Part shown: positions 12,901 to 30,980 of the stretch, one piece after another
How the letters are laid out: every line of letters starts with the position of its first letter
How positions within the stretch are numbered: position 1 is the first letter of the stretch
Virus record (IMG/VR): IMGVR_UViG_3300028392_000029
Span: 62,001-126,000 of that record
From: a virus
Direction: 5' to 3' (one strand)
DNA: 64,000 nucleotides
The notes under the pieces: generated by a model
Databases searched by the model: none
What the model was told of the DNA's origin: nothing
Seen by the model: only the letters and a program-made list of their open reading frames with translations
Position numbers and translations under genes: made by a program

Positions 12901-15900
12901 CAATGCTTAAATTTGTTTGTACACCAGCTAACGATCCTGTTTCAGCAGTTAATGAGTTGTCAATAATTTGGTTTGCTTGGTTGCCTGAACTAATACCGTT
13001 TAATGCTTGATAGTTACTGCTAGGAGCAGTATTTCCTAATACTGCGGCAAACAATGAATTTTTCAAGTAGTTGTAGGCTGTAACACTTTGTGAAACTTGA
13101 TAGCCAAAAGTTGTAGTAATTGGATTGCCAGTACTATTGAAATATGATTTGGCGGCATCGGTGTTCTTTTGATTACCGCCGTGGCCAATATCAAATACTG
13201 CGGCATCTACTAAGAGGCCAACATCACGCTCGCATTTTGTTGAGTTGTATACTAGTGATGCTGTGTTTGCTGTACTAGTTGCTGACAATGCCTGTGTAGT
13301 TCCACCATAGGCAGCACTAACAGAGAAGTGAGTCGCATCAACAATGTTTGAAACATAATATGTAACGCCAGCAGTAACACCGCCAGCAGTAACAGTAAAT
13401 GTCATTGGCATGTATAGTGACAAATAAGCTGTTGAGTTGCAGGTAAATGTACTGTTGGTTCCTGTGCCTGGTGAGCCACCTGTTGTTGCTGTGATAGTAA
13501 CTGTATAGTTATAGATGATAAAGTTTGTAACTTCCTTCATCATGAACTGTTTATTTTTAGCCAATAATAATTGTGCGCTGGTATTTAGATAACCGTTTTC
13601 AACTTGCAAGGCTGCATATCGAACAGTCTGCCATGGCTTGTCAAGTGTTTGTCCTTGACCATTACCTAATGCATCAGTGCCTGAAGGTGCCACATACACT
13701 ACGTTATTGATAACTCCAAAATATGCCCACTGGGGGGTAAGTGATCCGCCTACTGTGGATGCACGTAAAACCTGTCCGTCAGTACCGATAGGTAGTCGAG
13801 CCGGGCCTGCACCACCGTAATAAATTGTATCGCCTTGTGTAGTTAGTACATTGGTAATAGAACCTACTGCTAACACGTTCCAATATGTACCAGTAGTGTC
13901 TGCGTCAGGTCTGTTGCCTGATGCGGCAACGTGTGCTGTTACACAGATGTAACTGTTAGATCCAAAATTAACAGTATCACCTGCTACATATGCTGTAGAA
14001 GATGCCCAGCTTACTGCATAACCAACAGATGTAATACCACCAGTTTGAATTACGCCACCCGATACATTAGTAACTGTGATTAATAAATCGTTAGCTGGAC
14101 TGATGCCACCTAGTGCAGTTCCTAAGATCTTGATAGTATTAGTATTTGCATAGCCAGTTCCGCCACTAGCTACTGTAACAGTATAGTTTGTATTACTTAC
14201 GATAACATTAAACGTTGCACTAGTTCCAGAACCAACAACGTTAGTTCCGCTCAGTGCTGAGAAAGTTTGTGTTGATGGGTTCCAACGAATACCGCTGTTC
14301 AATCGTGACCAGTAACCAGTAAATGGAGGACTTGGGTTTGTAGTTCCAGTCATTGAGCCAGACGCCGTTGTTACTGTAAACGGTGTACCGCCTGAAACTG
14401 TACTAACTGTAAATTGAGTAGCACTGATAATAGTACTAACATAATAGGTTTGTGTTGTAGCTACTATATTACCAAAAGTTGTTCCGGTAAACACTAAGGG
14501 TAAGTTTGGTAGTAGGTTAGCTGTTGATCCAACGGTGATAGCATTGATACTTCCAGTAACTGTAGTTGAACTTACTGCCTGGCTTGAACTAATTGTAAAA
14601 CTTTTACCGGTAATTGTTACTGAAGATACACCTGATTGAGTCTGATTAACAGTCCATGATGTACCGCTACCTGCGGTGATATAAGTTCCGGCACTGATGT
14701 TAGTACCAGTCACGACCATACCAATCGAGATTGTTCCGGTAATTGCACCAGCAATATTTAAAGACTGACCAGTAATACTAGCAGTAGCCATCGTAGCTGT
14801 ATTCACTGTTACAATCGTAGTATTTGCCGCAATACTGCCGCCGGATAGTGTCATACCTGCACTGAATGTACCAGTTTGAGTTCCAGCCGCGGTCATTGTT
14901 GTACCGCTAACAAATGTCGCAGTGTTTGACGCAGTTGTGTTAGTTGTTGCTGTTGCTGTAACTGTTTGTATTGAGTTGTCTAATGTTGCAACATAAGTAT
15001 ATCCGCCTAATCGAACAACGTTACCAGTTTGATATGATGTTGCACCAACCCAGTCACCTAATAGTGTAAATCCAGTTGTAAATATTGACCAATCACTTGA
15101 TGTAGGAGATGGAGTGCTGGCAGTATTAACTGTGTTTGACACATATTGATATCCGCCATAGGTTACTATATCTCCGTTTTGGTATGTAGTACCACTTGAC
15201 CAACTATTATAGAACTGTAAACCTGCAATCCATACTGCCCAATTGGCTGTGGCAAATGCCGCTGACGAAGTATGTTGTGTTGTACAGATCCATAAATCGG
15301 CACCGTACTTTACAACGTCGTTTATTTTATAACGAACTGTGCTGCCACTCCATGTGCCTAGATATGTTATACCTTTGTGTAAAAAGTCCCACTTGTTTTG
15401 ATCATTTTCTAAACCTAGACTTGCAGTGGCTGCAGAAGTGTGTCCGGCATTACATACATAAGAAATACCACCGTATAATACAATGTCATTTATTCTGTAT
15501 CGATATGATGTTGCCCAGTTGCCGGTCCAAGCAAGACCTTTAACCCAAATATCCCAGTTAGAGATATCGTTTTCTAAACCTAAGGCAGTAGTACTAGCGG
15601 ATGTGTGTGCAGTATTACAAATATATGAATTTGCGCCATAGTTAACAATATCGTTAACTTTGTATTTTGTACTAACAGCCCAGCCTGCTGAAACCCAGTT
15701 AAACGAACTAGCATATAAATCCCACTTGCTTTGATCGTTTTCTAATCCCAGTAGAGTTGTGGCTGCCGATGTGTGTGGAGTATTACAAATATAAAGACGA
15801 CCGCCGTAACTAATTACATCGCGTAATTTGTAATATGTACTAATAGCCCAGGCACCAGTCCATGTAGAGCCGTCGCTAACTAATTGCCAATTACCGGATG

Positions 15901-16057
15901 ATAAATCTGTATAAAAATTGGATGTTGCGGTATGCCCGAGGACACACATATAAGTTTGTCCGCCATAGCGTAACACGTCGTCTTTTACATAGGTAGTGGA
16001 TGCGCTCCAGTTACCCTGCCATACGAACTTAATTCTACCTAGTTTAAATTCAGCCAT
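3929..16057 (-). CDS. Giant modular tail fibre protein with carbohydrate-binding repeats
   Basis: 4042 aa, the largest complete gene here. Residues 1-350 hold about seven 50-aa repeats of the form W....Y..ND(I/V)V.YG...Y(I/V)C...HT(S/A), like chitin-binding type 3 / CBM5-12 modules, and a further copy lies near residue 680. Next come four widely spaced C.RD(V/A)G...DA..(H/Y)D repeats (near residues 940, 1340, 1650 and 1950) and a beta-helix-like region with NGTGLRNMTM and NGNSSYGTYGT. Roughly residues 2525-2745 form a propeller-like array (W..(I/V)(A/T)YG.G.(F/W)(V/M)A(V/I)A..). A long Thr/Ser/Gly low-complexity region with recurring 50-60-aa modules follows. The C-terminus has STDQDGNFQVG and NVVPTQKAIKSYI, known from fibre proteins of T4-like cyanophages. 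It is probably a long fibre that binds surface sugar. It is paralogous to 16112-22000. Confidence 0.8.
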   Translation of the reverse strand: MAEFKLGRIKFVWQGNWSASTTYVKDDVLRYGGQTYMCVLGHTATSNFYTDLSSGNWQLVSDGSTWTGAWAISTYYKLRDVISYGGRLYICNTPHTSAATTLLGLENDQSKWDLYASSFNWVSAGWAVSTKYKVNDIVNYGANSYICNTAHTSASTTALGLENDISNWDIWVKGLAWTGNWATSYRYRINDIVLYGGISYVCNAGHTSAATASLGLENDQNKWDFLHKGITYLGTWSGSTVRYKINDVVKYGADLWICTTQHTSSAAFATANWAVWIAGLQFYNSWSSGTTYQNGDIVTYGGYQYVSNTVNTASTPSPTSSDWSIFTTGFTLLGDWVGATSYQTGNVVRLGGYTYVATLDNSIQTVTATATTNTTASNTATFVSGTTMTAAGTQTGTFSAGMTLSGGSIAANTTIVTVNTATMATASITGQSLNIAGAITGTISIGMVVTGTNISAGTYITAGSGTSWTVNQTQSGVSSVTITGKSFTISSSQAVSSTTVTGSINAITVGSTANLLPNLPLVFTGTTFGNIVATTQTYYVSTIISATQFTVSTVSGGTPFTVTTASGSMTGTTNPSPPFTGYWSRLNSGIRWNPSTQTFSALSGTNVVGSGTSATFNVIVSNTNYTVTVASGGTGYANTNTIKILGTALGGISPANDLLITVTNVSGGVIQTGGITSVGYAVSWASSTAYVAGDTVNFGSNSYICVTAHVAASGNRPDADTTGTYWNVLAVGSITNVLTTQGDTIYYGGAGPARLPIGTDGQVLRASTVGGSLTPQWAYFGVINNVVYVAPSGTDALGNGQGQTLDKPWQTVRYAALQVENGYLNTSAQLLLAKNKQFMMKEVTNFIIYNYTVTITATTGGSPGTGTNSTFTCNSTAYLSLYMPMTFTVTAGGVTAGVTYYVSNIVDATHFSVSAAYGGTTQALSATSTANTASLVYNSTKCERDVGLLVDAAVFDIGHGGNQKNTDAAKSYFNSTGNPITTTFGYQVSQSVTAYNYLKNSLFAAVLGNTAPSSNYQALNGISSGNQANQIIDNSLTAETGSLAGVQTNLSIVTTALQANSGKVLSGVLIAGTAGQLTVPSGTYTVGSSILVTGTNTGTGTITSNTIYYVMVGGTAVSTIQVTNSYANATSSPTVAGTVTAVGVGGTTTGLTFTLFPGVTVSAAQLPQTTIMAKTGNYSEILPIVVPANTAISGDELRGTVIQPAGAVAALVNDKPKSVTALLRTKALLSNLVSNTSITPTSGNTASQVTSLPAGDAGSTAAANSVINSTTLMSNIFSNGLALAPAYSFTNPTGYNTSFLVGYGDAKAQIVQNYNYIKAQISQYIYNNYLSVYNAIDVSICQRDVGYVLDALLHDMTYGGNTQTNIAGSAYYSYGVLTEAATEKTATIAAYGQLKTIIGQIATGTLVTSQTATNASITGYIVGTALNVSSTVSGTIQVGQIITGAGIASNTIVTAYNSINSNWTVSISQTVGSVGSPIAIAGAYPTQVTTGTAGSSIAGVFAQSRVQNVVDWVTNAAATSTVVTTTGSTIGPSSTTLTIGTLVSGTIAVGQLVTGAGVAAGTYITANLSGSGNGSTWTVSVSQTVASSAIGTQGAFTPNDAGTVALSSSSLQTAFNALLNKKTEIQSDTTVWVQKYFQALNFNTATCYRDAGYIVDALAYDLVLGTNFNSITVAKSYYRAITSAQTVLLNQTQAELGAIGFIGYKAKLIAASGAAAQASVMIDDIVSTIYGQVTTTATAFNSSGNVVTLASTAGVYVNMPVVFTSGSQGGTQQNQTYWVLSVNTTTNQITITATYGSVSAVTLTTAASTSVAVTIGAVVQTHGTLTYDNTLSTINGAEIIRANINFLAYESVAYVNASYGGTVSGTNSTGYLITTTGNHNFVVGDPVTFTGTVGISNIVAGNTYYVLAAGLTSTSFAVTSTQFSLVPTQVATATLGSLTVKYAYSVPACIRDTTSYLNAIVYDLNFPGNYKTQRSAQLYNNAVGGSVKENMFLLRNGTGLRNMTMTGLTGTLGAANAYGTRRPTAGSYSSLDPGFGPNDANAWIYARSPYTQNCTMFGYGCVGMKIDGALHAGGNRSIVANDYTTILSDGIGVWCTGSSSLTELVSVFCYYGYAGYLAELGGRMRATNGNSSYGTYGTLAEGGDTYEVAVTAAINNRSGQATVSNVFTDSTNAIYRMEFSNAGSGYNTATWSIGGTGYNATVVANEFRDNAVFETRPLTGGANYVTQSNVAQAGTLYQINLAATDSAISAAYIGMRILLTGGTGNGQAGYIVNYNSGTKLANVAKESFTTIVVNSCTTSVFTTTTNTSTLYANMPIYFSGASTFGGGNITPLTTVYYVIGASLSSNGTTFSVASASGSSSPVVLTSGSGTMTINAAGWDHVVPGTTNATNLDLTTTYIIEPRVVASAPGFVPSIGTQVLNSAGWADVAYGDTTVTYNSVSGTIGLGTGTLSSGSGATFSIVRTGVAYAITITTGGTLYTIGNTITIPGTSLGGVTPANNLVVTITNVNTGTGAITNFTYTGVGSGGYYVAITSNGNATQYSSDGTSWTTGGTLSSSTTWTAIAYGAGVWVAIAKGGTLSNYATTPLTWQASSAMPATANWSAIAYGNGRFMAVASGSANAAYSTVGQNWTNTNALPSGANWSGVAYGGTIWVAISGGVAGSTAAASSADGTTWTARTLPSSQNWTSVTYGKNIFVAVAASTTATAYSIDGITWKSSGAGMGVNLPWSRVKYGQGLFLAAPASQNQNITATTSITATFSGYISAVTGTSGTTGTVLTVTGSVVGTIALGMNLSGGGTQNGTYISSLGTGTGGVGTYNVSITNNVGTTGSPQAFVGVNNLITVSSTTGVVAGETFIPTAVTQTPTATATTNATATGSASTIATSVLTVGGTISGTWAVGMVVTGSASIPAGTYITSLGTGTGGAGTYNLSTTPGTVASFAATGTLNSITLSSVAGLVPGESFVTTSTQTASTVVSTAAGTSITLANSSTFDVGEPVVFTAATFNPVLLAAATGTNLLTVSSTSNLVVNQSIVFTAVTQTTTATATTSATATMTGSTIGATGILTVGTLTAGSLSIGMVLTGGSIGASVYITGNLLGSGSGSTWQTNTTTTQTSTTITGTLSSVTVGSTTGMVVGETYTSTAVTASTTATQTTTTSAVMANSSITSGILTVGTVSSGIVVIGMALSGSGVTAGTYVVANISGNGTSAGSQWAVSSSQTTNVSTTTITGTSYIVTVASNSNMVVGQSFATGSSGAFGNLANSATYYILTINSTFITISATPGGAPFVLINASGTVAITAGAALGGLVSGSTYYILTIPTSSTLTLGANYGSNPVSLINGVGSWNVTTGQTFSSVTAGTTYYITQVNSGSSTIQISATVGGSTLNLTTAAAGAWTSVAGGVLGGIVSGTQTYYVLTNNTGTGVITVATSYGGSAVTWALGAGAWAAGAGVSLGGPVATTGQVTAVGVNNGVITTTQTVSALGISVGSMIYFTNGSGTVFGGPTANTLYYVNSASTNSVTVATYSGGAGTGTAFTSWAGGTGTMNINVVSSGLITGVPYYILTVGSNYVTVGSTFGTAPVPITTSTGDSWSTACGTFFGNLVSTSTYYVQQVFSGTNQLQVSQTSTGSSFTLVSGAGGWTSTAGAATQVSASNDGINWVVQNLTSVASWPAIAFGNPSSVPLWVACSLNTTIFNKIVTGATATLRCKVSAGAISEYRLIEPGSGYSSAPLLTITDPNQTSPATQSTRVGVGAIANPMWTNRGLQYATGTATVSGNGYADSYQTTSYINISGLYVTPTAGANIQIAGNGSYYKLVQVSNLLGTGPGLAPYTAVFQISPSFTSANAPVHGSAMTLKLKYSQVRLTGHDFLSIGTGNQTTTNYPGTPLQAANPTLQTVGNGGGRVFYTSTDQDGNFQVGTLFSVQQATGVASINADAFNLAGLNSLTLGSISLGSSNATITQFSTDPYFTANSDNVVPTQKAIKSYISSQIGGGSSALNVNTLTAGVIYIAGNTISTTTQVQILVPATMNFTGAGAGINGIPLAMNFLLLN

Positions 16058-16111: not shown

Positions 16112-19100
16112 TTAGTTATTAGCACTAAAACTGTTGGCAAACAACGAATGTGCCAACATCATACCGTTGATACCTGCGTTTGGTCCTTTGATATTCACCG
16201 TGGCTTTCATCAAAATCTGTTGCCCAACACTTGAATATATTTTCTGCGATCCGCCAAGTCCTACCGTACCTGCAATAACTGCACCTGTTTGTGCATTTGA
16301 TCCGCCACCGGCAATGTTTCGTGCTAGGTATGCTTTAACAGCTTTTTGTGTCGGAACTACTGTGTCACTATTTGCAACAAAATATGTATCCGTTGAAAAA
16401 CTAGTAATTGTCACAGAGTTTGCACCTGCACTTAACCCGCCAATGACTAATTTTGTCAGTCCGGCTAGACTAAATTGATTAGCTGAAATTGTTACAATAC
16501 CGCTGGCCTGTTGTACTGCAAACAGATTACCGACTTTAAAGTTGCCGTCCTGGTCTGTTGATGTTTGGAATACTCGACCACTATTGTTTTCAGCAATTTG
16601 TTTATAACTGGCCGCGGTCAATGGGTCAACATTTGGATAGTTTGTCTGTGCTTTATTACCAGTACCGATGTACAAGAAATCGTGCCCCGTAATTCTACAC
16701 TGGCTATATTTTAATCGAATACTAATAGTTGTCCCGTGGACTGGTGCTAGACTAATTGTTAATGCGGCTGCAATTTGGAAAAGATAGTTTCCACTACCTA
16801 ACGGAGTTATAACTACGACTCGGTATAAATTATTATTTCCGCTGATAGTTATGGCCGCTCCCGGAGTTGGGGATTGTGACAACCCACTGACATATAGATA
16901 CTGACTAGATTGCAATTGGTCGGCATAGCCGTCACCATTGACTGCAACTGTCGTAGTTGATGTTTGATAACCATTACCTCGGTTGAGGAATGTAGGATTA
17001 CCTAATACTCCTGTGGCTGTGCGGCATGCAGTTGTCACGGCTAGTGTTGCATTAGGATCATATATAGTAACTGTTGGAGTAGTGGCATAGCCGCCTCCTG
17101 GCTCATATATCTTTACCATACTGACTTTGCTATTAGCTACAATCACTCGTCCAATAGTAGTTGGTCCGGTAAGTACACTGGCAGCAGTGTTTGACGCTGT
17201 ACCGGCAATTGCCGTCCAAATTGGTGTAACTGCTCCGGCTATGCTTGTAGGATTTCCAAATGCTACAGCTGACCAAGGAGCACTTGTTGGCATTATCTGC
17301 GGGGTCCAATATAATCCATCTTGACTAGTGGCCGCTGTGCTGGTATTGGCCGCAACTGCAAAAAATAAACCTTGCCCGTATGTCACGGCTGTCCATGTCT
17401 GCGTACTAGGTAGAGCGTTTATTGTCCAAGTAATACCATCAAAGGAATATGCTGATTGATTTGTTTGGTCAATCGCTACAAATCTACCGTTACCCCATGT
17501 TACTGATATCCATGTACTGCTAGCTGGCAATGTACAAGGTGTCCATAGACTGCCGTTGTTAGTAGAATAAGCGGCATTGGCTGTTCCGGAAGCGACTGCA
17601 ACCCATGTACCAATAGATCCATATGCTATACTAGACCAGTTTCTTGAAGTCGGTAATGATCCGCCGTTAGCCCATGAAGTTCCACTAGTTGATGTAGCCG
17701 AATATGTGCTACCGTATGCAATCGCTACAAATGTCCCGTTACCAAATGCACAAGCTGACCAGTTGGCTGCAACCGGCAGTGTGCCACCTGCACTCCATGA
17801 TGCACCAGTATTTGATATACTTGTTAAATTACTTGAAGATGCGCCGCCTGCGACTGCTACAAAAAATCCTTGCCCAAATGCTAACGAAGTCCACGCTGTG
17901 CCGGCTGCCAGTGCTGTGGGATTCACAGTTGCTGCCAGCCAATTTTTACCGTCTGTAGATGTTGCCACACTACTCACTTGATCAATTGCAACAAATGTTC
18001 CTAATGCATAAATCATTGCGGCCCAAGTACTAGTTGATGGTAGTACTTGTAGTGTTCCTGTAAATCCGGGTGATGAAAAACTTACTTTTGGTTCAATGGA
18101 ATATACTGTGGTTGTATCAAGAGCCGGTGCAATAGGTTGCCCAGGCAGGATATTGTCAAAACCTACAGCTCCAATGTACGAGTTGCCATTGGCGGTATAC
18201 ACCGGAACTGGAACTCCTGCATATGTCCATGTGCCAGTTACTGAAGTTAGTGTGGCTTGACTTAAAGTAACAGTACTGATACCAGTACCTAATACTGTAG
18301 TACCTGCTTGTATTCCGGGGCCTGTTACAGCGCCACCTACAATAATACCAACTGTGCTGGCAATACCGCTGATGGTCTGTGTACTGTTACTTGTTCCAGT
18401 AAATGTTCCTGGTGCAGTCGCAGATAAAGTAATTTGATTCGTAAGAGTATTGTTAGTCAAGACCCAATAAGGTGTTCCCCAGCCAAGTGTTCCAATTACT
18501 CCCTGAGCAGTCGCTAACATGTTAGCAGTACCAGCATAAGTAGAGATATTTAAAATAGTACCAGTACCACCTAAACTAGTAGGTAATGCTGTTGAAATCT
18601 GAATTTTAGATCCGTTGATTGCATAAACAAAATAGCTAGTTCCGGGACTTACTCCGCCAAAGATAGTATTAAATGTCGGATTAACTGCAAATATAATGTT
18701 TTCTCCTACAAATATTCCCGATACACTTGCTAGTGTAAGACTATTGTCAACACTACTTGATGCAGTTACTGATGTAGTTTGTGTACTAGGCCCAAACATA
18801 ATGGCCTGTCCTACTTGTAAAGTGCTAGTAGATAAACATGTTACTGAATTGTTTGCATTACTTGTAGAGGTAACTGTTACTTGCGGGAAACTTTCTCTAC
18901 TAATATATGCGGCTTTTGTACTACTGTTATAATATTGTATATAGCCGTACTGCCCAACTCCTGTACCCGAAGTAATAATTAATCGCATACCAAAATATGT
19001 GGAAATAAGGTTCTGGTCGTTTGATGCTAATGTAACGTAAGTATTGGTGCCGCCGCCGGCTTGATTACCTGCTGTTAAGTAGCCGGCACCGCCAGCTGTT

Positions 19101-22000
19101 ATATCAGTGGGCCCAATAATTCTAGCTTCAAAGATGCCGCCATCTCTAAACTCATCGGCAACTGCAACTGCACCTGTACCAGCACCACTAAATGTATAGG
19201 TTGCTGTTGAATAATTTTGTCCGGCATTAGAGAATTCTAATCTAAGAATTTTGTTATTTGCTTGGCCGGCAAAGGCTGCTTGAATTTGAGCTTGTTGGCT
19301 ACGATTATTAACTGTTGCGGCTAGCGGGACTTCGGTAGTGTCATATCCTTCAGCAACTGTTCCATATGTGCCATACGAACTATTACCGTTGGTAGCACGA
19401 ATTCTTCCACCGGCCTCTGCTAGATATCCAATATGTCCATAATAGTTAAACACTGATACTAGTTCTGTTAGTGCGCTAGGGCCTGTACACCATGCGCCAA
19501 TTCCATCGCTAATAACTGTGGTAAAATCGTTAGCCACGATTGATCGATTGCCACCGTTATGCAGTGTACCGTCAATCTTTACACCGGTACATCCGGTACC
19601 AAACATCGTAACGTTTTGCGCATAAGGAGATTTGCTGGTAATTTGTACACTAGTATCATTTGGTCCGGATCCGGGATCTAAACTAACAAATGCTCCGCCA
19701 GTTGGACGTGAAGTGAGATATTGATTAATTGGTGTAAGGCCGCCAGTCAATCCTTGTAAGGTCATATTTCTAATGCCTGTGCCGTTACGACAAAGGAACA
19801 TATTAGATCCTTCGTAGCCGGCTGCTGGTTGCACCACTGTACCGCGTAGTTCATCGCCGCATAGCGCAACACCTGCTGGAATACTGATTGGAAGAATTTC
19901 AGTATAAGTTCCAGTCTTAATAAAAATTGTAGCAGGTCCGATAACGTTTGCACAAGCATAACGGATGCTAGCCCAAGGTGTATTCACAGTTGTTCCACGA
20001 GTAGGTAAATCAATTCCACTCATAGCAACATAATATACAGCACCAATAATACCAAAATTATTCCAAGCCGGGGCAATATTTGTGTTATCAACTACACCAT
20101 TGGTAACTGCCGCAGTTGCACGAAGTAGTTGTCCTTGTGTACCTATTGGTATCGCTTTATTAGCAGTACCGTAAGTTGGTATATCGCCATAAGTCTGGAT
20201 AGCTACCCATTGGTCTCCAGCGGCGTATCTGTTCCAATAGATTGATGCATTTTGTATAGACCCGCCTGTGGTAAATCCTGTAGCTAATGTTTCAAAACTA
20301 GCTGTAGTATTAGTACAGGTTATTACTGTATATGTTCCGTTGTAAGCTGTTGGGGTTGTGTTTGATACAATGATTAAATTTCCTGGAGTATACGGGCTAT
20401 TAGCTTGTGTAGGGAAGGTAACTGTTCCCACACCGGTTACTGTTGGGGTAGCAGTGAAGGTTGTTCCAGATAATGTCAGTGTTCCAAAATTAATGTCAGC
20501 AGTACCAAGTGCTCCAAGATATGTTGATGCTAGTGCAATTGTTGTACCATCAATAATATTACCAATATAATAAGTACCAGCTGTTAATGCTCCTGCTCCT
20601 GTACCTGCTACTACAAAAGTTTCACCTATGTGTAGTCCTGTTGATGAACTAACTGTAACATTTACTCCACTGGTTGCAGTGATACTTCCTGTGCGAGTTG
20701 TTAATGCTCCAGTACCCAAAGCACCGGTGATCATCAACGACGTAAATGTATTATCGATTAACGGTGTATTACTTGTAGTTGCATTATGTAATTGTTTGCA
20801 AACATATGCTGTGCCATTGTAAGTAACAAGGTCGCCTGGAGCATATGATGTGGTCAATGCCCAGGTATTTCTCCACTGTACACCAGGAATTAATAATTGC
20901 CATGCCGATGTATCAGTGGGATCATTACCGGTGTTATCAGCAATTGCAACATAAAGTTGCCCATCACGACGTACAATCTCACCTACTTTATATCCCGGAG
21001 TTGGACTTGCTACATATTCACCTCTGATATTGTAACTCTTAGATAAAAGAGTCCAATCGGTTGCATCAGTTGACGGAATGTTACCTTGATTATTTGTAGT
21101 TGCGCTTACATACTGATATCCGCCGTACACTACAACATCGCCAACTACATATGATGCACTAACACTCCAAGTACTAGAAAATTCTAAACCAGGAACATAT
21201 ATTGAAAAATTTGTTGTGCTAAAAGTAGTAGTTGAAGTATGAGGAATGTTACAAAACCAAAGATCTGCACCGTACTTGACTATGTCGTTAAGTTTGTAAC
21301 GAGTCACTGATGCCCAGTTAGTTTTAAAATCTATACCACTATGTACTATAGTCCACTTGCTTTGATCAACTTCTAATCCAGACGATACAGATACATTGCT
21401 AGTGTGTCCAGTGACACACTTGTACACTATGCCGCCGTAACGGACTACATCACCTACTTTATATTGAACACTAGTCGACCAATCTGTTTTCCAATCTGAA
21501 CCGTAGCTGACCACAGCCCAGTTTGATTGATTTGCTTCTAGCGTAGCGCCTGTTTGGTGTCCGGTAAGGCAACGATATAACGTTGAGCCGTAGCGAACAA
21601 TGTCGCCCTTTTTAAATCTAGCACTGGCTGTCCAATTTTTAGACCATTCATCAGCTAGAGCGTATATAATCCAGTTTGCTTGATTTGCTTCAAGTCCTAG
21701 TAGTGCTGTTGCCGCAGAAGTGTGCCCAGCGGTACAAATATAAATTACACCACCGTAGGTAACATAATCGCCAATGTTGTATAGGGTACCTACAGCCCAA
21801 ACACCTTTCCATGTGTATCCATCAAACCATAAAGTCCAGTTGGCCGAATCTGTATAAAAATTTGCGCTGGCAGTGTTAGCCGATGTACACACATAGGATT
21901 TTCCACCGTAGTTTATTACATCGTCTTTAGCATACACTGTGCTGGTTGTCCAAACACCGCGCCATGTAAATCGTATTCTACTTATTTTAAAATCAGCCAT
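16112..22000 (-). CDS. Large modular tail fibre protein, paralog of the 4042-aa fibre
   Basis: 1962 aa. It has the same architecture as 3929-16057 in shorter form. Residues 1-390 carry about seven CBM5/12-like repeats (W....Y..(G/N)D.V.YGG..Y.C...HTS). The beta-helix-like region, about residues 675-900, has GTYTEILPISIPAGVALCGD, DELRGTVVQPA, NGTGIRNMTLQGLTG and NGNSSYGTYGTVAEG. Roughly residues 1315-1585 are propeller-like repeats (AFGNGTFVAIA, WGNGRFVAID, YGQGLFFAVA). The C-terminus has STDQDGNFKVGNLF and VVPTQKAVKAYL. It lacks most of the expanded low-complexity modules and the C.RD repeats of its paralog. A second host-contact fibre, or a shorter subunit of the same fibre, is the likely role. 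Confidence 0.8.
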   Translation of the reverse strand: MADFKISRIRFTWRGVWTTSTVYAKDDVINYGGKSYVCTSANTASANFYTDSANWTLWFDGYTWKGVWAVGTLYNIGDYVTYGGVIYICTAGHTSAATALLGLEANQANWIIYALADEWSKNWTASARFKKGDIVRYGSTLYRCLTGHQTGATLEANQSNWAVVSYGSDWKTDWSTSVQYKVGDVVRYGGIVYKCVTGHTSNVSVSSGLEVDQSKWTIVHSGIDFKTNWASVTRYKLNDIVKYGADLWFCNIPHTSTTTFSTTNFSIYVPGLEFSSTWSVSASYVVGDVVVYGGYQYVSATTNNQGNIPSTDATDWTLLSKSYNIRGEYVASPTPGYKVGEIVRRDGQLYVAIADNTGNDPTDTSAWQLLIPGVQWRNTWALTTSYAPGDLVTYNGTAYVCKQLHNATTSNTPLIDNTFTSLMITGALGTGALTTRTGSITATSGVNVTVSSSTGLHIGETFVVAGTGAGALTAGTYYIGNIIDGTTIALASTYLGALGTADINFGTLTLSGTTFTATPTVTGVGTVTFPTQANSPYTPGNLIIVSNTTPTAYNGTYTVITCTNTTASFETLATGFTTGGSIQNASIYWNRYAAGDQWVAIQTYGDIPTYGTANKAIPIGTQGQLLRATAAVTNGVVDNTNIAPAWNNFGIIGAVYYVAMSGIDLPTRGTTVNTPWASIRYACANVIGPATIFIKTGTYTEILPISIPAGVALCGDELRGTVVQPAAGYEGSNMFLCRNGTGIRNMTLQGLTGGLTPINQYLTSRPTGGAFVSLDPGSGPNDTSVQITSKSPYAQNVTMFGTGCTGVKIDGTLHNGGNRSIVANDFTTVISDGIGAWCTGPSALTELVSVFNYYGHIGYLAEAGGRIRATNGNSSYGTYGTVAEGYDTTEVPLAATVNNRSQQAQIQAAFAGQANNKILRLEFSNAGQNYSTATYTFSGAGTGAVAVADEFRDGGIFEARIIGPTDITAGGAGYLTAGNQAGGGTNTYVTLASNDQNLISTYFGMRLIITSGTGVGQYGYIQYYNSSTKAAYISRESFPQVTVTSTSNANNSVTCLSTSTLQVGQAIMFGPSTQTTSVTASSSVDNSLTLASVSGIFVGENIIFAVNPTFNTIFGGVSPGTSYFVYAINGSKIQISTALPTSLGGTGTILNISTYAGTANMLATAQGVIGTLGWGTPYWVLTNNTLTNQITLSATAPGTFTGTSNSTQTISGIASTVGIIVGGAVTGPGIQAGTTVLGTGISTVTLSQATLTSVTGTWTYAGVPVPVYTANGNSYIGAVGFDNILPGQPIAPALDTTTVYSIEPKVSFSSPGFTGTLQVLPSTSTWAAMIYALGTFVAIDQVSSVATSTDGKNWLAATVNPTALAAGTAWTSLAFGQGFFVAVAGGASSSNLTSISNTGASWSAGGTLPVAANWSACAFGNGTFVAIAYGSTYSATSTSGTSWANGGSLPTSRNWSSIAYGSIGTWVAVASGTANAAYSTNNGSLWTPCTLPASSTWISVTWGNGRFVAIDQTNQSAYSFDGITWTINALPSTQTWTAVTYGQGLFFAVAANTSTAATSQDGLYWTPQIMPTSAPWSAVAFGNPTSIAGAVTPIWTAIAGTASNTAASVLTGPTTIGRVIVANSKVSMVKIYEPGGGYATTPTVTIYDPNATLAVTTACRTATGVLGNPTFLNRGNGYQTSTTTVAVNGDGYADQLQSSQYLYVSGLSQSPTPGAAITISGNNNLYRVVVITPLGSGNYLFQIAAALTISLAPVHGTTISIRLKYSQCRITGHDFLYIGTGNKAQTNYPNVDPLTAASYKQIAENNSGRVFQTSTDQDGNFKVGNLFAVQQASGIVTISANQFSLAGLTKLVIGGLSAGANSVTITSFSTDTYFVANSDTVVPTQKAVKAYLARNIAGGGSNAQTGAVIAGTVGLGGSQKIYSSVGQQILMKATVNIKGPNAGINGMMLAHSLFANSFSANN

Positions 22001-24386: not shown

Positions 24387-25475
24387 TTACCCGAAGATCA
24401 GGGACATTTCATTCATAATATCAGTAACATCAACTTCGGCTAGTACAGGACTTGTACCAATTGCTGGTATCCATCCTAAGGTACCATCATACACTTCAGT
24501 TTGAGAAATTGTAGAATTGTATCTGGTAGCGCCTACTTCTGGAGAACCTGGTCTCCCTGATGCTCCTGTAGAAGTTCCTACAGGAAGTACAACTCCGTTA
24601 GACCCTGTAAATTTTAAATAACCATTAGCAATATTGTTAAATGTCAGTGTTGAATTTGCAGAACTGCTATACAGCATAGTCAAAGTATTGCCATTAAATT
24701 TAAAATTATTATTTAAAATAACGCTACCGCTAGACGCTGATAAGATAGTATCAGCACTGGCATTACTGATAGTGTTTCCATTAAATAGAATATTTCCGCC
24801 AGTAATATTTGTTGGATTTAAAGAACTAACAGCAAGTGTTCCTCCTAATCCTCCTAAAATATTAACACCGTAAATATTTTTCCAACGTAGGCTATTAGAT
24901 CCTAGACTATAGGTATTTGTTGTAATGGGTAAAATATTACTATTAACTTCTGCTGTAATTGTAATAGTGTCAGTAGTTTGATTACCAAGTGTAATGTTAC
25001 CGTCAAGGGTGATATTACCGGTAGCGTGTAGGTCTCCAGTAACAGTAGTATTATTGTTTAGGTAAACATTGCCAGCGCCAATGGGACTAATTGAAATATT
25101 ATCGTTATTAATATAATCAACTATTGTGTTTCCACTAAGTGTTAATTTGTTAGTTTTAATAACAGGCGCAGTAATTGTTGGATTACTAGCCTGATTAGGA
25201 CTAATAGTAATTCCGCTAATAATATTTTGTATTTGATTAGTAGTAAACTCTAAATTTCCAAACTGTCCTAGAGTAGTAACATTTAAAGTCGGAGTGTTTA
25301 TTGCTCCAGCTGTTCCTGCAACGTTTAGATTTGATGTCGGACTAGAGGTACCAATGCCAACGTACTTGCCTGTAACATTTAAGTATAATAACTTAGTGTC
25401 AACAGCAAGATCAGAACCGTTACGTAGTAGATTATCTGCTAGTAACGGGCCGCCAATTCTTCCTATTTGAGCCAT
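24387..25475 (-). CDS. Tail fibre protein (GPLLxDNLLRNG family), second copy
   Basis: 362 aa. It shares the N-terminal pattern IGRIGGPLLADNLLRNGSDL and LLYLNVTGKYVGIGTSSPTS with 22725-24242, and then N(I/T)T.TGDLHATGNI..DG.ITLGNQTTDTIT. It also shares the C-terminal GSNGVVLPVGT...RPGSPEVGATRYNST. It is a shorter version without the AGTYI modules. Most likely a fibre subunit; two such paralogs side by side may form different segments of one fibre or alternative fibres. Confidence 0.7.
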   Translation of the reverse strand: MAQIGRIGGPLLADNLLRNGSDLAVDTKLLYLNVTGKYVGIGTSSPTSNLNVAGTAGAINTPTLNVTTLGQFGNLEFTTNQIQNIISGITISPNQASNPTITAPVIKTNKLTLSGNTIVDYINNDNISISPIGAGNVYLNNNTTVTGDLHATGNITLDGNITLGNQTTDTITITAEVNSNILPITTNTYSLGSNSLRWKNIYGVNILGGLGGTLAVSSLNPTNITGGNILFNGNTISNASADTILSASSGSVILNNNFKFNGNTLTMLYSSSANSTLTFNNIANGYLKFTGSNGVVLPVGTSTGASGRPGSPEVGATRYNSTISQTEVYDGTLGWIPAIGTSPVLAEVDVTDIMNEMSLIFG

Positions 25476-25484
25476 GCTAGCTCC

Positions 25485-26540
25485 TTATTGGTCAAAACCT
25501 AATAGCGCAATAACTACCTTGCCATAAGGCACCGGCGTACTAAATTTTAAGTAATAACTGTTGTTTGAAATTGATTGGCTAGCTTCAGCAATCGTTATAG
25601 CAGTATTAACTGCAATAGTTCCAGTTGGTACATGATTCATAGAAATACTAGTCAATGCTCCTGTGTTTGGATCAGTTATTGCAGAACCAGTAAGAAGGGC
25701 CCCGCTATAGATATTAGATCCGCTAACAGTTGCGCCAGTAAGAGGTACAGATGGGAATACCGCAGGAGTGCTACCACTTGCAGTAACTGATCCTCCGTTT
25801 TGATATGTTCCCGGATTAGTTGTTAGTGCGTAAGTAACTGTAGTTGCTGTTGAACCAGTGACTGTAAATACCCCGTTAAATGCACTTGATGCTTGTCCAG
25901 TAGATAAAATACCTTCAACTGTTATTGTTGCACCAATTGCAAATCCAGGTTGTGAAGACGTAGTATTTGACATTGTAACCGTAGCAACATTACTAGTCCA
26001 ACTTGCCGTGGTTACATTTAAACTTGTGTTAAAATATAATATTGCCGAACCTGTGCTAGCGGCTACGCTAAGAGATCCGGTATATGTTTCTGTCGGCAAT
26101 GTAGGATTTTGCACTACTGTATAGTTAAGGCTACTAAGTTGAATAACGTTTTCAACTACAACAATAATGTTTTGTCCGCCAAATGTTGAGTTTGTACTAT
26201 CTACATTTGTTGGGTTATAGGCGGAGTTTAAAGGACCAAAATATGTGTTATTGCTATCACCTGCACCTAAATTCTGTTGTACAATTGTTCCAGATTCTTT
26301 AAATCTTAAACTGCGCCATTTACTACTTTGATAAATTTCCAGTTGTCCACCAGCTGTTATGTCAGTGTTATATCGTACCATTCCGTTTACTGGATTGGCC
26401 GGACGTTGGGCAGTAGTACCAGTTGGTACTATTACATTATTAGTGCTTCCCAAAGTTACCTGACCCGTGGCGGTATTGGCGGATACATCAAATCCTGTAA
26501 CTGCCCTACGATTAAGGTTAACTTGTTTTAAGAATCTCAT
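25485..26540 (-). CDS. Virion structural / fibre-associated protein
   Basis: 351 aa. N-terminal MRFLKQVNLNRRAVTGFDVS is followed by GTTAQRPANPVNGMVRYNTD and LEIYQSSKWRSLRFKE, a fibre-type tip motif, here in the N-terminal third. The segment YFGPLN......P.......GGQNIIVVVENVIQL...NY.VVQNP is known to me from cyanophage structural proteins. Residues about 190-260 hold a module AFNGVFTVTGSTATTVTYAL...PGTYQNGGSV that recurs in the 1962-aa fibre (AYNGTYTVITC...). Its stop/start overlap (TAATG) with 26540-26848 implies translational coupling. Confidence 0.6.
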   Translation of the reverse strand: MRFLKQVNLNRRAVTGFDVSANTATGQVTLGSTNNVIVPTGTTAQRPANPVNGMVRYNTDITAGGQLEIYQSSKWRSLRFKESGTIVQQNLGAGDSNNTYFGPLNSAYNPTNVDSTNSTFGGQNIIVVVENVIQLSSLNYTVVQNPTLPTETYTGSLSVAASTGSAILYFNTSLNVTTASWTSNVATVTMSNTTSSQPGFAIGATITVEGILSTGQASSAFNGVFTVTGSTATTVTYALTTNPGTYQNGGSVTASGSTPAVFPSVPLTGATVSGSNIYSGALLTGSAITDPNTGALTSISMNHVPTGTIAVNTAITIAEASQSISNNSYYLKFSTPVPYGKVVIALLGFDQ

Positions 26541-26848
26541 TATACCGCCAATGTGCTAATTGTAAAAGATAACATCGAGCCTACACTGGCCACTGCTACA
26601 ATGCTATCTCCGTTTGCTAGTACTAATTTTTCTTGATCTAAACTTAATGTTTCCCCGCCTACGATTGGCAGTTGATAAACTATTGTTGTGTTATTTCCTG
26701 CACTGCTGCCGCTAGGGATTGCATACAGTGTAAGATTACTAGTAGTTGCTCCGTAATTACACACAATCATAGCAGTAATAGCATTGTTACCTGTACTGGT
26801 ATAAACTGTGGTATTGGTTATTGCAACTAGGGTATTTGAAATTGCCAT
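26540..26848 (-). CDS. Small beta-rich virion protein
   Basis: 102 aa, MAISNTLVAITNTTVYTSTG start, with AITAMIVCNYGATTSNLTLY and LPIVGGETLSLDQEKLVLAN. It is the same general small-protein type as 22391-22720 and 3594-3914 (iCN...... L.LyaiP.G......t.iy.lpI..gEt..l..EKlvL..GDsI.a). It is translated just ahead of, and overlapping, the structural gene at 25485-26540. It is probably a structural decoration with no enzyme motif. Confidence 0.5.
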   Translation of the reverse strand: MAISNTLVAITNTTVYTSTGNNAITAMIVCNYGATTSNLTLYAIPSGSSAGNNTTIVYQLPIVGGETLSLDQEKLVLANGDSIVAVASVGSMLSFTISTLAV

Positions 26849-26857
26849 GTTCTTTCC

Positions 26858-27820
26858 TTATAGTAAAATACTCAAGAGTACTGCACGATTCTTACTGACA
26901 AGTTCGTCTTGAGTAGTTACATTTGATATATATAGTCCTGTATTACCCGGGCCAGCAGTCGCTTTGGAATACAATTTTGTTCGACCGGCTTGTTGGCTCG
27001 GTGTACTGCTTTGATCATCTAAATTTAATATCGCATTTACTTCAACGTTATTGTTGGCAGCGGCAAACACTAGATTTTGCGAAATTGAATTGTTAGTAAT
27101 AGTGTCACCAAAGAAATTCAAATCGCTAATATTCATACCGACTGCTGACACAGTAACAATAGTATTGCCACCAACATACATATTAATACTAGAACTAAAT
27201 GCTTGTACCTTACTGTATTCTGAACCAAAAACTGCATTTTGCGGAGTATATAATCTGTCAACTGTAGCAATACCATTGCTGGCAGCTACGTAATTGTACA
27301 AATATTTTCTGTTGAGAATATGATTATCTCTGGTAACTTTTGTTTCGTAGCTTGTTGAATTTGCAATTAACAATGCATAATTACTGTTCTGCATGTCAAA
27401 AGCAAAATCAGTTGTGCCGTCTGTGGCAATAGTTCTAAGTTGTAATCCTGATAGTTGTCCATCGATAGTCTTTAGTACAAATGCTCCGTTAACTTGACTG
27501 CTGTTTACAGGATTAAAATAAGGAACTTGTTCGTTGAATAAAAACTGAGCAGAGCTTCGACTACCTCGCAATATTTCAATACCGGCTTGGTAACTTTTTG
27601 TGCTACTAATACCAGCTCCAGTTTGCCCATAGTTTAACTGAAGTATATTATCTTTAATTTGAGTGTCAACGCTTTCTATATAAGAAGTAGTGCCTTGAAC
27701 ATCTAGATTGCCAATAACAGTAACAGTGCCTGTGGTACTTTGTGTATCCAGTATGATATTGCCACCAGATTGTACTTGGAGTTTGTAATCACCGTTACTG
27801 ACTTTTAATATTCTTGACAT
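26858..27820 (-). CDS. Tail fibre-like structural protein
   Basis: 320 aa. The N-terminus, MSRILKVSNGDYKLQVQSGG then TVTVIGNLDVQGTTSYIESV and QIKDNILQLNYGQ, is a recognised fibre N-terminal domain in T4-like cyanophage relatives (TG.V.V.GNL.V.G.tt.i.s......DNil.LN.G). The rest is beta-rich with VNGAFVLKT and a C-terminal STPSQQAGRTKLYSKATAGPG...YISN. A probable fibre or whisker subunit. The gene follows a 12-bp GC-rich hairpin and an AAGGA ribosome site. Confidence 0.65.
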   Translation of the reverse strand: MSRILKVSNGDYKLQVQSGGNIILDTQSTTGTVTVIGNLDVQGTTSYIESVDTQIKDNILQLNYGQTGAGISSTKSYQAGIEILRGSRSSAQFLFNEQVPYFNPVNSSQVNGAFVLKTIDGQLSGLQLRTIATDGTTDFAFDMQNSNYALLIANSTSYETKVTRDNHILNRKYLYNYVAASNGIATVDRLYTPQNAVFGSEYSKVQAFSSSINMYVGGNTIVTVSAVGMNISDLNFFGDTITNNSISQNLVFAAANNNVEVNAILNLDDQSSTPSQQAGRTKLYSKATAGPGNTGLYISNVTTQDELVSKNRAVLLSILL

Positions 27821-27836
27821 TCTATATCCTTAAGTT

Positions 27837-27852
27837 GGGGACCTAAGTCCCC
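27837..27852 (-). other. Hairpin GGGGAC/GTCCCC between fibre genes
   Basis: Perfect 6-bp GC-rich stem with a 4-base loop in the 40-bp gap between two genes on the minus strand. There is no T-run after it on either strand, so it is a weak terminator at best. It may act as an RNA-processing or stability element before the AAGGA ribosome site of the next gene. Confidence 0.4.
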
Positions 27853-27860
27853 GTTCCTAA

Positions 27861-28883
27861 TTAAGCGTTATCGATCAACAATGAATCTGCTGTGGCTGCA
27901 GACATGTTCCACTTGACTTGTGATCCATCTACAAAAGCCGCATCTGTTCCAGTGCCACGTGCAATTGTAACTTTGCGTGATGTAATCTTGGTAGCAAAGT
28001 ATGTATAGCCAGCAGAGTCAAGTAAACGGATACTGCCTTCGCCAGCCGCTGAAGCAACTGAAGACTTCAATGCAACGATGCCTGTACGTGTACCGTCTGT
28101 TACTTTGAAACGATTTGTTGAAACTTGTTTAAGAATATCAACAGTAGTTGCTGAACCACCAGTTAAGTATGCTGTCATTAAGATTGTATTTTCTTGGTTA
28201 GTTGCTGAACCAACATTGCCAGTATCTACATTCAATACTGCTGTGGCTGTTAATGTGCCTTGTGTACCAGTTGACAATGTAACTGCCGGCACTGTTGTAT
28301 AACCAGAACCGCTTTCAGTAATTGTGAATCCAGTAATTGTACCTGCGGCTGCAACTGAACCACCTAATGTGATTGTTAAATCGTTTGTTGTAGCAACACC
28401 GCCTAAGCTAGCACCATCAATAACAATAGTGTTACCTGAAGCATAGCCTGTACCTTTAGTAGTACAAGTGATAGTTGTGCTTGCACCATAGCTTGTGCCA
28501 CCAGTACGTACAACTGTAAACACAGCACTAGTACCAGTACCGTTTGTTGATTTTTGTGTTAGGCCAGTAAAAGTCTGTGTTACTGCTACTGCTGTACCTG
28601 AACCAGTTAATGTTGTTACGTTAGTGCCAGATGTACCAGCGGCAATAGTTAACAATGCACCTGCTGGGCCTACTACTAAACTAGCTGTTGCACGAACACC
28701 ATTTGGTAGTGTTGGAGTTGCAATACTGATTTGTGATGCACCTGCTGTAAAACCTGATGAGTTGTTAGCACCAGCCAATGTGATACTTGCAATCCCTTCA
28801 CCGCCGATACCTTCATCAGTTGTAGTGCTTGCGGAACCGACGTTACGGTTACCAAAATATTTCTTATTTAAAGGACGTCCCAT
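27861..28883 (-). CDS. Virion structural protein (MGRPLNKKYFGN family)
   Basis: 340 aa. It begins MGRPLNKKYFGNRNVGSAST, a start I associate with a structural protein of T4-like marine phages. The middle carries a module (GTSAVFTVVRTG...GTGYASGNTIVIDG, LGG......NDLTITL) also present at least twice in the 4042-aa fibre. The C-terminal third (QVSTNRFKVTDGTRTGIVAL, DSAGYTYFATKITSRKVTIA) probably forms a separate fold. Transcription probably starts at the TATAAATA at 28972-28979. Confidence 0.6.
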   Translation of the reverse strand: MGRPLNKKYFGNRNVGSASTTTDEGIGGEGIASITLAGANNSSGFTAGASQISIATPTLPNGVRATASLVVGPAGALLTIAAGTSGTNVTTLTGSGTAVAVTQTFTGLTQKSTNGTGTSAVFTVVRTGGTSYGASTTITCTTKGTGYASGNTIVIDGASLGGVATTNDLTITLGGSVAAAGTITGFTITESGSGYTTVPAVTLSTGTQGTLTATAVLNVDTGNVGSATNQENTILMTAYLTGGSATTVDILKQVSTNRFKVTDGTRTGIVALKSSVASAAGEGSIRLLDSAGYTYFATKITSRKVTIARGTGTDAAFVDGSQVKWNMSAATADSLLIDNA

Positions 28884-28979
28884 TTTGTTTTCTCCTTGTA
28901 GAAAAACGGCGTTCTAGGCCGTACGCGGTTGGATTTCCGCATAAAATCCACACCATGTGGATCATACATTGTATTTATA
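28884..28979 (-). promoter_or_regulatory. Late promoter TATAAATA and structured leader
   Basis: An exact T4-type late box TATAAATA lies at 28972-28979 on the minus strand, overlapping the 3' end of the ubiquitin-like gene. The leader of about 80 bases to the ATG at 28883 contains two hairpins: ATCCACA/TGTGGAT (28946-28962) and ACGGC/GCCGT (28906-28922). An AGGAG-type ribosome site precedes the ATG. The exact consensus and gap position make this one of the best promoter calls in the window. Confidence 0.65.
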
Positions 28980-29721
28980 CGTAAGTGATTCGCATAGCTA
29001 CGTTGTCAATATATGCCGTATCAGTGTGTGGTGTAAGAACGTTGCTTCTAAAGGCTATTGCAACACCAAAGTTTACGTTAATTGTATCTATTAACTGTAT
29101 TGGACTATTCCATAAGTTTGTAGGAGATCCATAAATTTTATAGTTGTCTACTCCAGGATCTGCAATATTATCGCCGACTAGTTGTCCGTTTAGAACTAGT
29201 TGCACAACATAGTCTTGAACTCTAGATGCTCTGATAGAATCTATTTGAACTTCAATCCCCAGCAATGTTGATCCGTTGGGAGAAAATGCAAAGTTAGTAA
29301 ACCATAACTGGCTGGTTATTGTGGCAAATCGCTCTTGCCATAGACCTGATATTGTATGTAAAGGTTTAGCACTAGTGGCATACTTTGACACACCTCTACC
29401 AATGCTGGCTGCTGTATCTAGCCAGCTTATACTGTTATCCGTACTTACTTGAGTTACCAAGTTTGAAACAAGAAATTTGGTAGTTGTTGGTATAGGTGCT
29501 GGCGGTACTACCAGCACTGTTAGTACTAGTACTGAAAGTTTTTGAATATTATAATCATCTAATGTTCGACCAGGTTCTAAAATAGTACCATTGTAAGTTA
29601 ATTGTGGTTGTCCGGCAGGTGGACCTATTCTATCCTGTATTTTTGCTAGGACTCCTTCGATAGAATCAGAAGACTCTACATCAATTGTGATAGTAGACGG
29701 TACCTGAACAAATATTTGCAT
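28975..29721 (-). CDS. Ubiquitin-like domain fused to a phage beta-sandwich domain
   Basis: 248 aa. Residues 1-72 align with eukaryotic ubiquitin almost end to end with one two-residue gap: MQIFV, TIT, SDSIE.V.AKIQD, LE.GRTL.DYNIQK.S.L.L. By hand I count about 40 identities in 72 positions. Equivalents of ubiquitin K29 and K63 are kept, K48 and I44 are replaced by Thr, and there is no C-terminal di-glycine. The chain continues through a proline linker (PPAPIP). The remaining ~160 residues (GLWQERFAT..., [42 protein letters not shown]) follow a beta-sandwich pattern seen in phage virion proteins. Lying between the head cassette and fibre genes, it is probably a virion component, with ubiquitin serving as a fold or mimic. 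It is unlikely to be a conjugated modifier. Confidence 0.75.
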
Positions 29722-29752
29722 AATAAATTCCTGTTAGTATATTTACCCAAAG

Positions 29753-29776
29753 AAAAACGCCCCGAAGGGCGTTTTT
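29753..29776 (-). terminator. Rho-independent terminator after gp23
   Basis: A 10-bp perfect stem AAAAACGCCC/GGGCGTTTTT. On the minus strand the loop is UUCG closed by C-G, the very stable tetraloop common in T4 terminators, followed by the T-run of the stem. It lies about 28 bp past the gp23 stop and upstream of the ubiquitin-like gene, so it ends or attenuates the head-gene transcript. The A/T arms also make it potentially bidirectional. Confidence 0.85.
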
Positions 29777-29804: not shown

Positions 29805-30980
29805 TTACTGGAACTTAACGTTACCTGAAGTAATACCAACTAGACCTAAATAGTCAGCGGCGTTACCTAAGCTACTTGCTGTGTTCGACAACTCAACATA
29901 ACCATAACGTGTCATGAATGATACGACTGGCTCAAATGTTGATGGATCTAAAACAACACCACTGCTCATCAATGGAATGTATGGGCAATAGAAAGCAGGA
30001 GCATCAGATTCTGAAGAACCTTTGTAACCTACTAGGATGCTTTGTGAATCGCTAGCATATGAGTTAACATATACTTTCATAGCATTGTTCAATGTACCAA
30101 CAAACTTAGTGTTTGTAGGTGCTTCGAATGTACCTTCTGTTGTACGAGCAAATGCGCTAGTAGTAGCAGATTGTAGAATTGTCAATGCAAATGGGCTAAC
30201 CACAGCGTAGTTACCAGCACCACGACGTGTACGTTGAGCGATCAAGTTAGCAACGCGGTTGATCATAACTGCCAAGGCAGCATGCTCATCACCCACGAAT
30301 GTTGCTGTACCAGATACTGACGCTTGGTCGTATGTGTATAAAGCTGAACCAGCTAATGATTGTAGGCTAGCTAGAATCTCTTGGTCGATCTCAGCAGTAA
30401 TTTCTTGTGCTAGAGCAGCCATGATTTCAGCTTCTACGTCAATACCTTGTTGTGCTTGTGCATCTTGAGCTGATTCAAATGTCCAGCGAGCTGACAATTT
30501 ACGTGTCTTCGCTTCAACAGTTTGTTTCAAGATTTGAATGCTTAATCTGTTACCAGCTTGACCTTCTAAAGTAGCTGTTGAGCTAGCCTTAGGAGTTGCG
30601 TCAGTTGTGTTACCAGAGTAAGAAGCCGCAATCTTGAATGGGCTCAATGCCTCTTCACCAGCTACTACACCAGCGCCCGATGATGAATCAGCGTAGCGAA
30701 CACGTAGAGTGTGAATTTGTCCTACTGGACCAGTCATTGGTTGTACGCCTAACAACTCGTTAGCAATAACGGTTGGCATTACGCGGCGGATTACTGGAAG
30801 AATCACGCGATTTAGTGTTGCAACGTTACCGGCAGAAGTGGCACCAGCAGTAGCGGATTCTGCAAGATACTTACGAGTATTCTCAAGAGCCACGCCCATT
30901 ACTGATTTTTTAGTGCCTGATAGGCCTTCTAAAAGTGCTTCTTTAGTTTCTGCCCAACGTCCGTTTAATAGTTCTGACAT
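29805..30980 (-). CDS. 23: Major capsid protein gp23
   Basis: 391 aa. It carries gp23 hallmarks: NRVILPVIRRVMPTVIANEL followed by GPVGQIHTLRVRYAD, an AEI.AALAQEITAEIDQEIL helix, VANLIAQRTRRGAGNYAVVS, VYVNSYASDS..LVGYKGSS, FYCPYIPLMSSGVVLDPSTF and a final RYGYVEL. It builds the icosahedral and prolate shell by HK97-fold packing around the gp22/gp21 core. It is shorter than T4 gp23 (521 aa); the insertion and N-terminal propeptide regions are reduced. It follows scaffold gp22 by 12 bp, the standard order, and is the last gene before the strong terminator. Confidence 0.97.
   Translation of the reverse strand: MSELLNGRWAETKEALLEGLSGTKKSVMGVALENTRKYLAESATAGATSAGNVATLNRVILPVIRRVMPTVIANELLGVQPMTGPVGQIHTLRVRYADSSSGAGVVAGEEALSPFKIAASYSGNTTDATPKASSTATLEGQAGNRLSIQILKQTVEAKTRKLSARWTFESAQDAQAQQGIDVEAEIMAALAQEITAEIDQEILASLQSLAGSALYTYDQASVSGTATFVGDEHAALAVMINRVANLIAQRTRRGAGNYAVVSPFALTILQSATTSAFARTTEGTFEAPTNTKFVGTLNNAMKVYVNSYASDSQSILVGYKGSSESDAPAFYCPYIPLMSSGVVLDPSTFEPVVSFMTRYGYVELSNTASSLGNAADYLGLVGITSGNVKFQ

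Follow-up and report, generated by a model that had tools for sequence, protein, structure and literature searches.

The 64,000-nt window analysed here (positions 62,001 to 126,000 of IMG/VR record IMGVR_UViG_3300028392_000029) is part of a 223,176-bp viral record with T4-like genes for the portal, the prohead protease, a scaffold-like protein, gp23 and the baseplate. The major capsid protein gp23 is encoded on the minus strand at 29805-30980 (PHROG 138, E = 4e-97). Directly downstream on the same strand, past a terminator-like hairpin that separates the two genes (AAAAACGCCC...GGGCGTTTTT; 29753-29776), lies the open reading frame of a 248-aa protein (28975-29721, stop included) that is conserved in contigs L002, L003 and L009. 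The protein consists of an N-terminal ubiquitin-family domain (residues 1-72; 29506-29721, minus strand), a proline-rich linker read from the sequence (residues 73-79, PPAPIPT; 29485-29505, minus strand) and a body domain of 169 residues (residues 80-248; 28978-29484, minus strand), and we refer to its gene as the fusion gene.

A T4-like late-promoter motif, TAAATA (29740-29745, minus strand), stands 24 nt 5' of the fusion-gene ATG, and the same motif is found at -23 to -27 ahead of several other genes in the window. The five minus-strand genes 3' of the fusion gene (24387-28883; individually 27861-28883, 26858-27820, 26540-26848, 25485-26540 and 24387-25475) have weak PHROG matches and probably encode virion or fibre proteins; for the 26858-27820 gene, the counterpart in the relative L012 has matches to PHROGs of tail-fibre and virion proteins. 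The late-promoter motif, the position behind gp23 and the five genes that follow, which putatively encode virion or fibre proteins, make late expression and a role in the particle likely for the fusion protein. Three very large open reading frames elsewhere in the window (3929-16057, 4042 aa; 16112-22000, 1962 aa; 55119-64000, at least 2960 aa) are perhaps virion or fibre genes as well. The window was found to contain no tRNA genes.

Residues 1-72 are a ubiquitin-family domain. The Pfam profile PF00240 matches the full protein with E = 3.1e-12 and residues 1-75 with E = 2.2e-13, scoring 46.5-50.2 bits against a curated cut-off of 25.4, and the PDB entries matched by phmmer are ubiquitins (58-60 bits for single-ubiquitin chains). 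Alignment with human ubiquitin gives 40 identical residues out of 72 (56%) with a single two-residue gap, in agreement with the count of about 40 made in an earlier note on this sequence, and the segments MQIFV, AKIQD, GRTL and DYNIQK are shared with eukaryotic ubiquitin. The ubiquitin part of the AlphaFold model has a pLDDT of ~80-90, and its top Foldseek matches are ubiquitin structures (target TM ~0.84-0.93, rmsd ~1.6-2.0 Å). Both the Pfam search of residues 1-75 and the structure prediction, which the earlier note had named as checks, thus returned ubiquitin, the latter as a beta-grasp ubiquitin fold with a TM of ~0.9. Among the top Foldseek viral matches, all named ubiquitins come from eukaryotic viruses.

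The proline linker that the earlier note described is present (VVPPAPIP), and the body domain that follows is predicted as the beta-sandwich it had proposed, with moderate model confidence (AlphaFold2 pLDDT ~65-84 from residue 135 onward). Modelling the body alone brought little improvement. No family in Pfam or PHROGs was found for the body; its Foldseek matches to phage proteins are weak, and its matches in the PDB are marginal (CylK, E ~0.01 over 33 residues). The body of the L009 homologue weakly matches a podovirus tail protein. Two relatives of the body show other architectures: the domain of a homologue in L011 (L011:2913-3752) is interrupted midway by ~100 inserted residues, and a 652-aa podovirus protein annotated as tail tubular protein A (L030:4902-6860; MW202478.1) contains a relative of the body in its N-terminal part, with repeats in between.

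The fusion gene occurs in several contigs. L002 is the same as the window over 12,744 bp, with a fusion protein 100% identical to that of the window, and was not counted as independent. L003, from another metagenome, carries the same fusion with 96% identity; the two genes differ by 29 synonymous and 9 non-synonymous changes and by one extra codon, with dN/dS of ~0.12 in the ubiquitin part and ~0.08 in the rest. The ubiquitin domain is under purifying selection. The two-domain gene is also found at the corresponding position in L009, a T4-like phage that is more distantly related; its product is 61% identical to that of the window over the whole protein and 51% in the domain. The body has diverged far more than gp23, with 66 vs 84% identity in L009 and 81 vs 98% in L004. 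Exposed proteins often diverge faster, and the rapid change of the body fits a surface-exposed protein.

Homologues were collected by searches with the body domain and gp23, and near-identical copies were counted once. The ubiquitin domain is present in 3 of the 11 distinct homologues (the window, L003 and L009), always at the native N-terminus, and absent from the other eight (L004, L010, L011, L126, L127, L128, L131 and L133). A close relative, L004, has a 98% identical gp23, yet its homologue lacks the ubiquitin domain: its DNA aligns with the window until just 5' of the start codon, after which the body begins directly (MITTNFLK...). A ubiquitin search of L005, a partial 79-kb copy of the L004 type, found none elsewhere in that record. 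On the gp23 tree, the presence of the domain requires at least two changes; one gain followed by losses, two gains, or swaps are possible histories.

Ubiquitin is abundant in the eukaryotic DNA of environmental samples, and a chimeric assembly or eukaryotic contamination could in principle have produced such a fusion. The earlier note had reasoned that absence of the N-terminal segment from all related phages would indicate a chimera; its suggested survey of relatives instead located the domain in L003 and L009. We rejected the chimera because an independent contig (96% identical) and a distant T4-like phage (61% identical) share the same fusion. The codons of the fusion gene are also AT-rich, as in the phage, and the gene is flanked on both sides by phage genes, which leaves an artefact of either kind with a negligible probability.

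A second fused phage protein was found in L015, where a ubiquitin domain precedes a different, unrelated protein (MQNAGPFQVIGRSVFLKSF...). This domain is 72% identical to human ubiquitin and 63% identical to the L009 domain, and it is located before an internal Met of its carrier protein. The upstream neighbour is a paralogue starting MAQNAAPFSAIGRTVFIKSF, which has no ubiquitin; since the paralogue starts without the domain, the domain was again added before an apparent native start. A replicative helicase and a virion structural match mark L015 as a phage contig, and it was the only contig found with this body domain. A tblastn search of 50,697 phage records with the fusion protein, its domain and human ubiquitin gave no match.

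Stand-alone ubiquitin-like proteins of 87-89 aa are encoded in the phage contigs L021 and L022-L029 (for example, L021:5950-6219 and L026:6001-6264). These proteins have no Gly-Gly and share a conserved C-terminal tail, R-[TS]-V-[IL]-Y-M. The phage genes of L021 include rIIA, rIIB and a gene for a PhoH-like protein (L021:2137-4014) that is broken by an intein-like segment matching terminase and primase PHROGs.

The pattern of retained and lost residues separates the core of the domain from its surface. At 11 of the 13 core positions listed, all four fusion sequences have the residue of human ubiquitin; the remaining two positions vary conservatively in L009 alone (Ile30 to Val, Leu67 to Ile). 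Across the same four sequences, Leu8 is deleted, Ile44 is replaced by Thr or Lys, Val70 by Thr, His68 by Val or Ile, and Lys48 by Thr or Arg. The window protein accordingly lacks the Leu8/Ile44/Val70 recognition patch (Leu8 deleted, Ile44 to Thr, Val70 to Thr); the two substitutions that the earlier note had read by eye, Thr for Ile44 and for Lys48, were both correct. The missing di-glycine tail that it had reported was likewise confirmed by alignment, and a C-terminal Gly or Gly-Gly is absent from the domains of the window, L003, L009 and L015.

Given these residues and what is known of the chemistry of ubiquitin, an E1 pathway cannot conjugate the domain, because it has no Gly-Gly, and ordinary ubiquitin-binding domains that recognize the Ile44 patch should not read it. 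No match to E1 (ThiF) or to Prok-JAB was obtained in the 223-kb record, which is possibly incomplete, and E2 (PF00179) gave no match in a search in which the controls gave none either. The domain looks as though it has been selected for its fold while its surface was re-made. With the parts needed for tagging lost, it has probably been reused as a stable surface-display module.

Relatives of the phage domains are widespread in prokaryotes. Using the phage domains as queries against 84,980 prokaryotic genomes, we identified at least 248 contigs that encode relatives, and the best 80 of the 248 were kept. Among these contigs, some from metagenome-assembled genomes (MAGs) may have been binned wrongly and a few resemble eukaryotic sequence (e.g., the polyubiquitin contig L083), while several come from isolates. 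In 66 of these best 80 loci, a hydrophobic, signal-peptide-like stretch stands right before the ubiquitin domain, and RGG is found in only 7 of them. The loci L046-L125 include ubiquitin domains behind signal-peptide-like segments in bacteria and some archaea (e.g., L070, L081, L060 and L047), and the bacterial bodies are diverse, ranging from an Iodobacter autotransporter with bacterial Ig-like domains (L070) to a protein with an IPTL-CTERM-like motif (L081). A different arrangement is seen in four contigs of actinobacterial MAGs (L065, L071, L086 and L095, at positions ~4.0-5.7 kb in each), where every one of the adjacent genes encodes ubiquitin together with a beta-rich domain that ends in FTG, with no signal peptide and with a conserved neighbourhood.

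Like the phage proteins, the exported bacterial proteins (e.g., Iodobacter L070) carry an N-terminal canonical ubiquitin domain on an extracellular, often beta-rich protein. Their domains are ~56-69% identical to that of L009 and up to 79% identical to that of L015, the latter value belonging to the Iodobacter domain, which is the nearest to L015 among the best 80 of 248. The bacterial proteins differ in having signal peptides and anchors or autotransporters, and most of the best 80 of the 248 prokaryotic domains keep Ile44, Val70 and Lys48. We infer a recent common ancestry of the phage and bacterial domains. The first loop is shortened in both phage carrier proteins, which also have Thr70 in common as well as hydrophobic residues at positions 49 and 68; these features hint at a single phage lineage. 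A tree built on 73 columns gives neither support for such a lineage nor evidence against it, with AU tests rejecting nothing, and it does not separate a bacterial from a eukaryotic donor of the phage domains.

Three systems described in the literature combine a ubiquitin-like protein with a prokaryotic or phage setting. Bacteroides fragilis secretes BfUbb, a ubiquitin that lacks the terminal glycine and is inhibitory to other strains (PMC3352274, PMC5705921), and a residue of a peptidyl-prolyl isomerase is reported to decide sensitivity to it (PMC12396204). BfUbb and the phage domain share a eukaryotic-like sequence in a prokaryotic setting and the absent terminal glycine, and BfUbb acts outside the cell; it is, however, a free protein with a signal peptide, whereas the phage domain begins at the initiator Met and is fused, in a late gene. 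Judging by the literature examined, exported ubiquitin domains of prokaryotes, as recognized here from sequence, are far commoner than this one case.

A ubiquitin-like fold encoded by a phage morphogenesis gene is already known from TAPI, the tail assembly protein I of lambda (gpI) and T1, which contains a ThiS/MoaD-like beta-grasp domain with a conserved C-terminal glycine (Iyer et al. 2006, PMC1779556). The TAPI gene neighbours a JAB/NlpC peptidase gene (TAPK), and TAPI is not in the mature tail (PMC1779556). The likeness lies in the architecture, an N-terminal ubiquitin-like beta-grasp domain of a protein from the phage morphogenesis region, followed by a linker and another domain; the domain described here differs in being of the PF00240 type, with no C-terminal glycine and no neighbouring Prok-JAB in the record. 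Bil systems are reported to modify the central tail fibre with a ubiquitin-like protein and to block assembly (PMC11364771, citing Hor et al. 2024). They too bring a ubiquitin-like protein together with phage structural proteins, but Bil defends bacteria with conjugation enzymes and a ubiquitin-like protein that can be conjugated, features that were not seen here. From eukaryotic ubiquitin itself (PF00240), whose beta-grasp fold and core residues it retains, the phage domain is distinguished by the loss of Gly-Gly, the Ile44 face and Lys48, by its N-terminal fusion to a phage protein and by the lack of an E1 or JAB match in the phage record. The open-access literature yielded no paper describing a phage-encoded ubiquitin and no earlier case of a tailed phage with a canonical ubiquitin domain on a protein of its virion region.

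The interpretation that we favour, with a probability of about 60%, is that the domain is a non-conjugated ubiquitin-fold module for display or binding on a late, probably surface-exposed virion protein. Of the two uses that the earlier note had considered, a captured fold serving as a surface module agrees with the sporadic N-terminal fusion, the intact core and lost signalling surface, the late-gene position beside the capsid gene, the second phage carrier and the many exported bacterial domains, whereas a decoy or adaptor in a Bil setting gained no positive support. As an anti-defence decoy, the domain would mimic the ubiquitin-like protein that Bil or type II CBASS uses, and would sequester or block the host conjugation machinery, or shield tail proteins. 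This is possible in principle because Bil is reported to attach its ubiquitin-like protein to the central tail fibre (PMC11364771); a ubiquitin on a gene of the virion region is suggestive, and the patchy presence of the domain would suit an arms race. Against it speak the missing Gly-Gly, the replaced Ile44 recognition face, the lack of a ThiF or JAB match in the record and the permanent fusion to a late protein of structural type rather than a free, early product, and PADLOC gave no defence-model match at E<=1, with PADLOC-DB of 2023, which may lack good Bil models. We regard a decoy as improbable.

A less remote alternative, though still an unlikely one, is a special case of display in which the domain on the virion binds a specific envelope target in a toxin-like or receptor-binding manner. 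The inhibition of competing B. fragilis by secreted BfUbb (PMC5705921), the isomerase residue that sets sensitivity to it (PMC12396204) and the frequency of exported bacterial ubiquitin domains argue for such a use, but the exposed face of the phage domain is unlike that of most bacterial domains. Slightly better placed, and nevertheless doubtful in our view, is a passive fusion, in which the domain only helps a beta-rich virion protein to fold or to stay soluble, while the homologues of that protein manage without it. Ubiquitin is a well-known solubility fusion tag, the domain is missing from most of the distinct homologues, its core is kept while the functional face is freed, and a role as a folding cap alone would yield the same data. 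Purifying selection on the domain is compatible with either reading, but two unrelated fused proteins and the exported bacterial parallel suggest a transferable role.

Under the favoured interpretation of a display or binding module, a late beta-sandwich protein of a T4-like phage would have gained a ubiquitin-family domain at its native N-terminus by fusion, and the ubiquitin fold would have been kept for its stability, outside conjugation pathways. After late transcription, the protein would enter the particle together with its body domain, and the ubiquitin domain would project from the particle through the proline-rich linker, where its re-surfaced face would be open to a target, most plausibly one within the host envelope or on its surface. 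A variant of the same explanation is that ubiquitin serves as a stable N-terminal folding cap. The virion location, surface exposure and binding role of the fusion protein are all parts that we infer.

In the usual view, ubiquitin is a protein tag of eukaryotes that only rarely occurs in prokaryotes. Close phage relatives with and without the domain provide a clean natural comparison, and the phage domains supply natural ubiquitin variants in which the core is fixed and the surface re-made. It can be speculated that a mobile extracellular ubiquitin display module is common to bacterial surface proteins and tailed-phage virions, its re-surfaced face binding a prokaryotic envelope target and mediating contact between phage and host; we consider so broad a generalization rather unlikely, but if true, it would mean a ubiquitin function wholly outside conjugation. 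The domain of a phage late protein, together with hundreds of exported bacterial ones, points to a conjugation-independent extracellular life of the ubiquitin fold.
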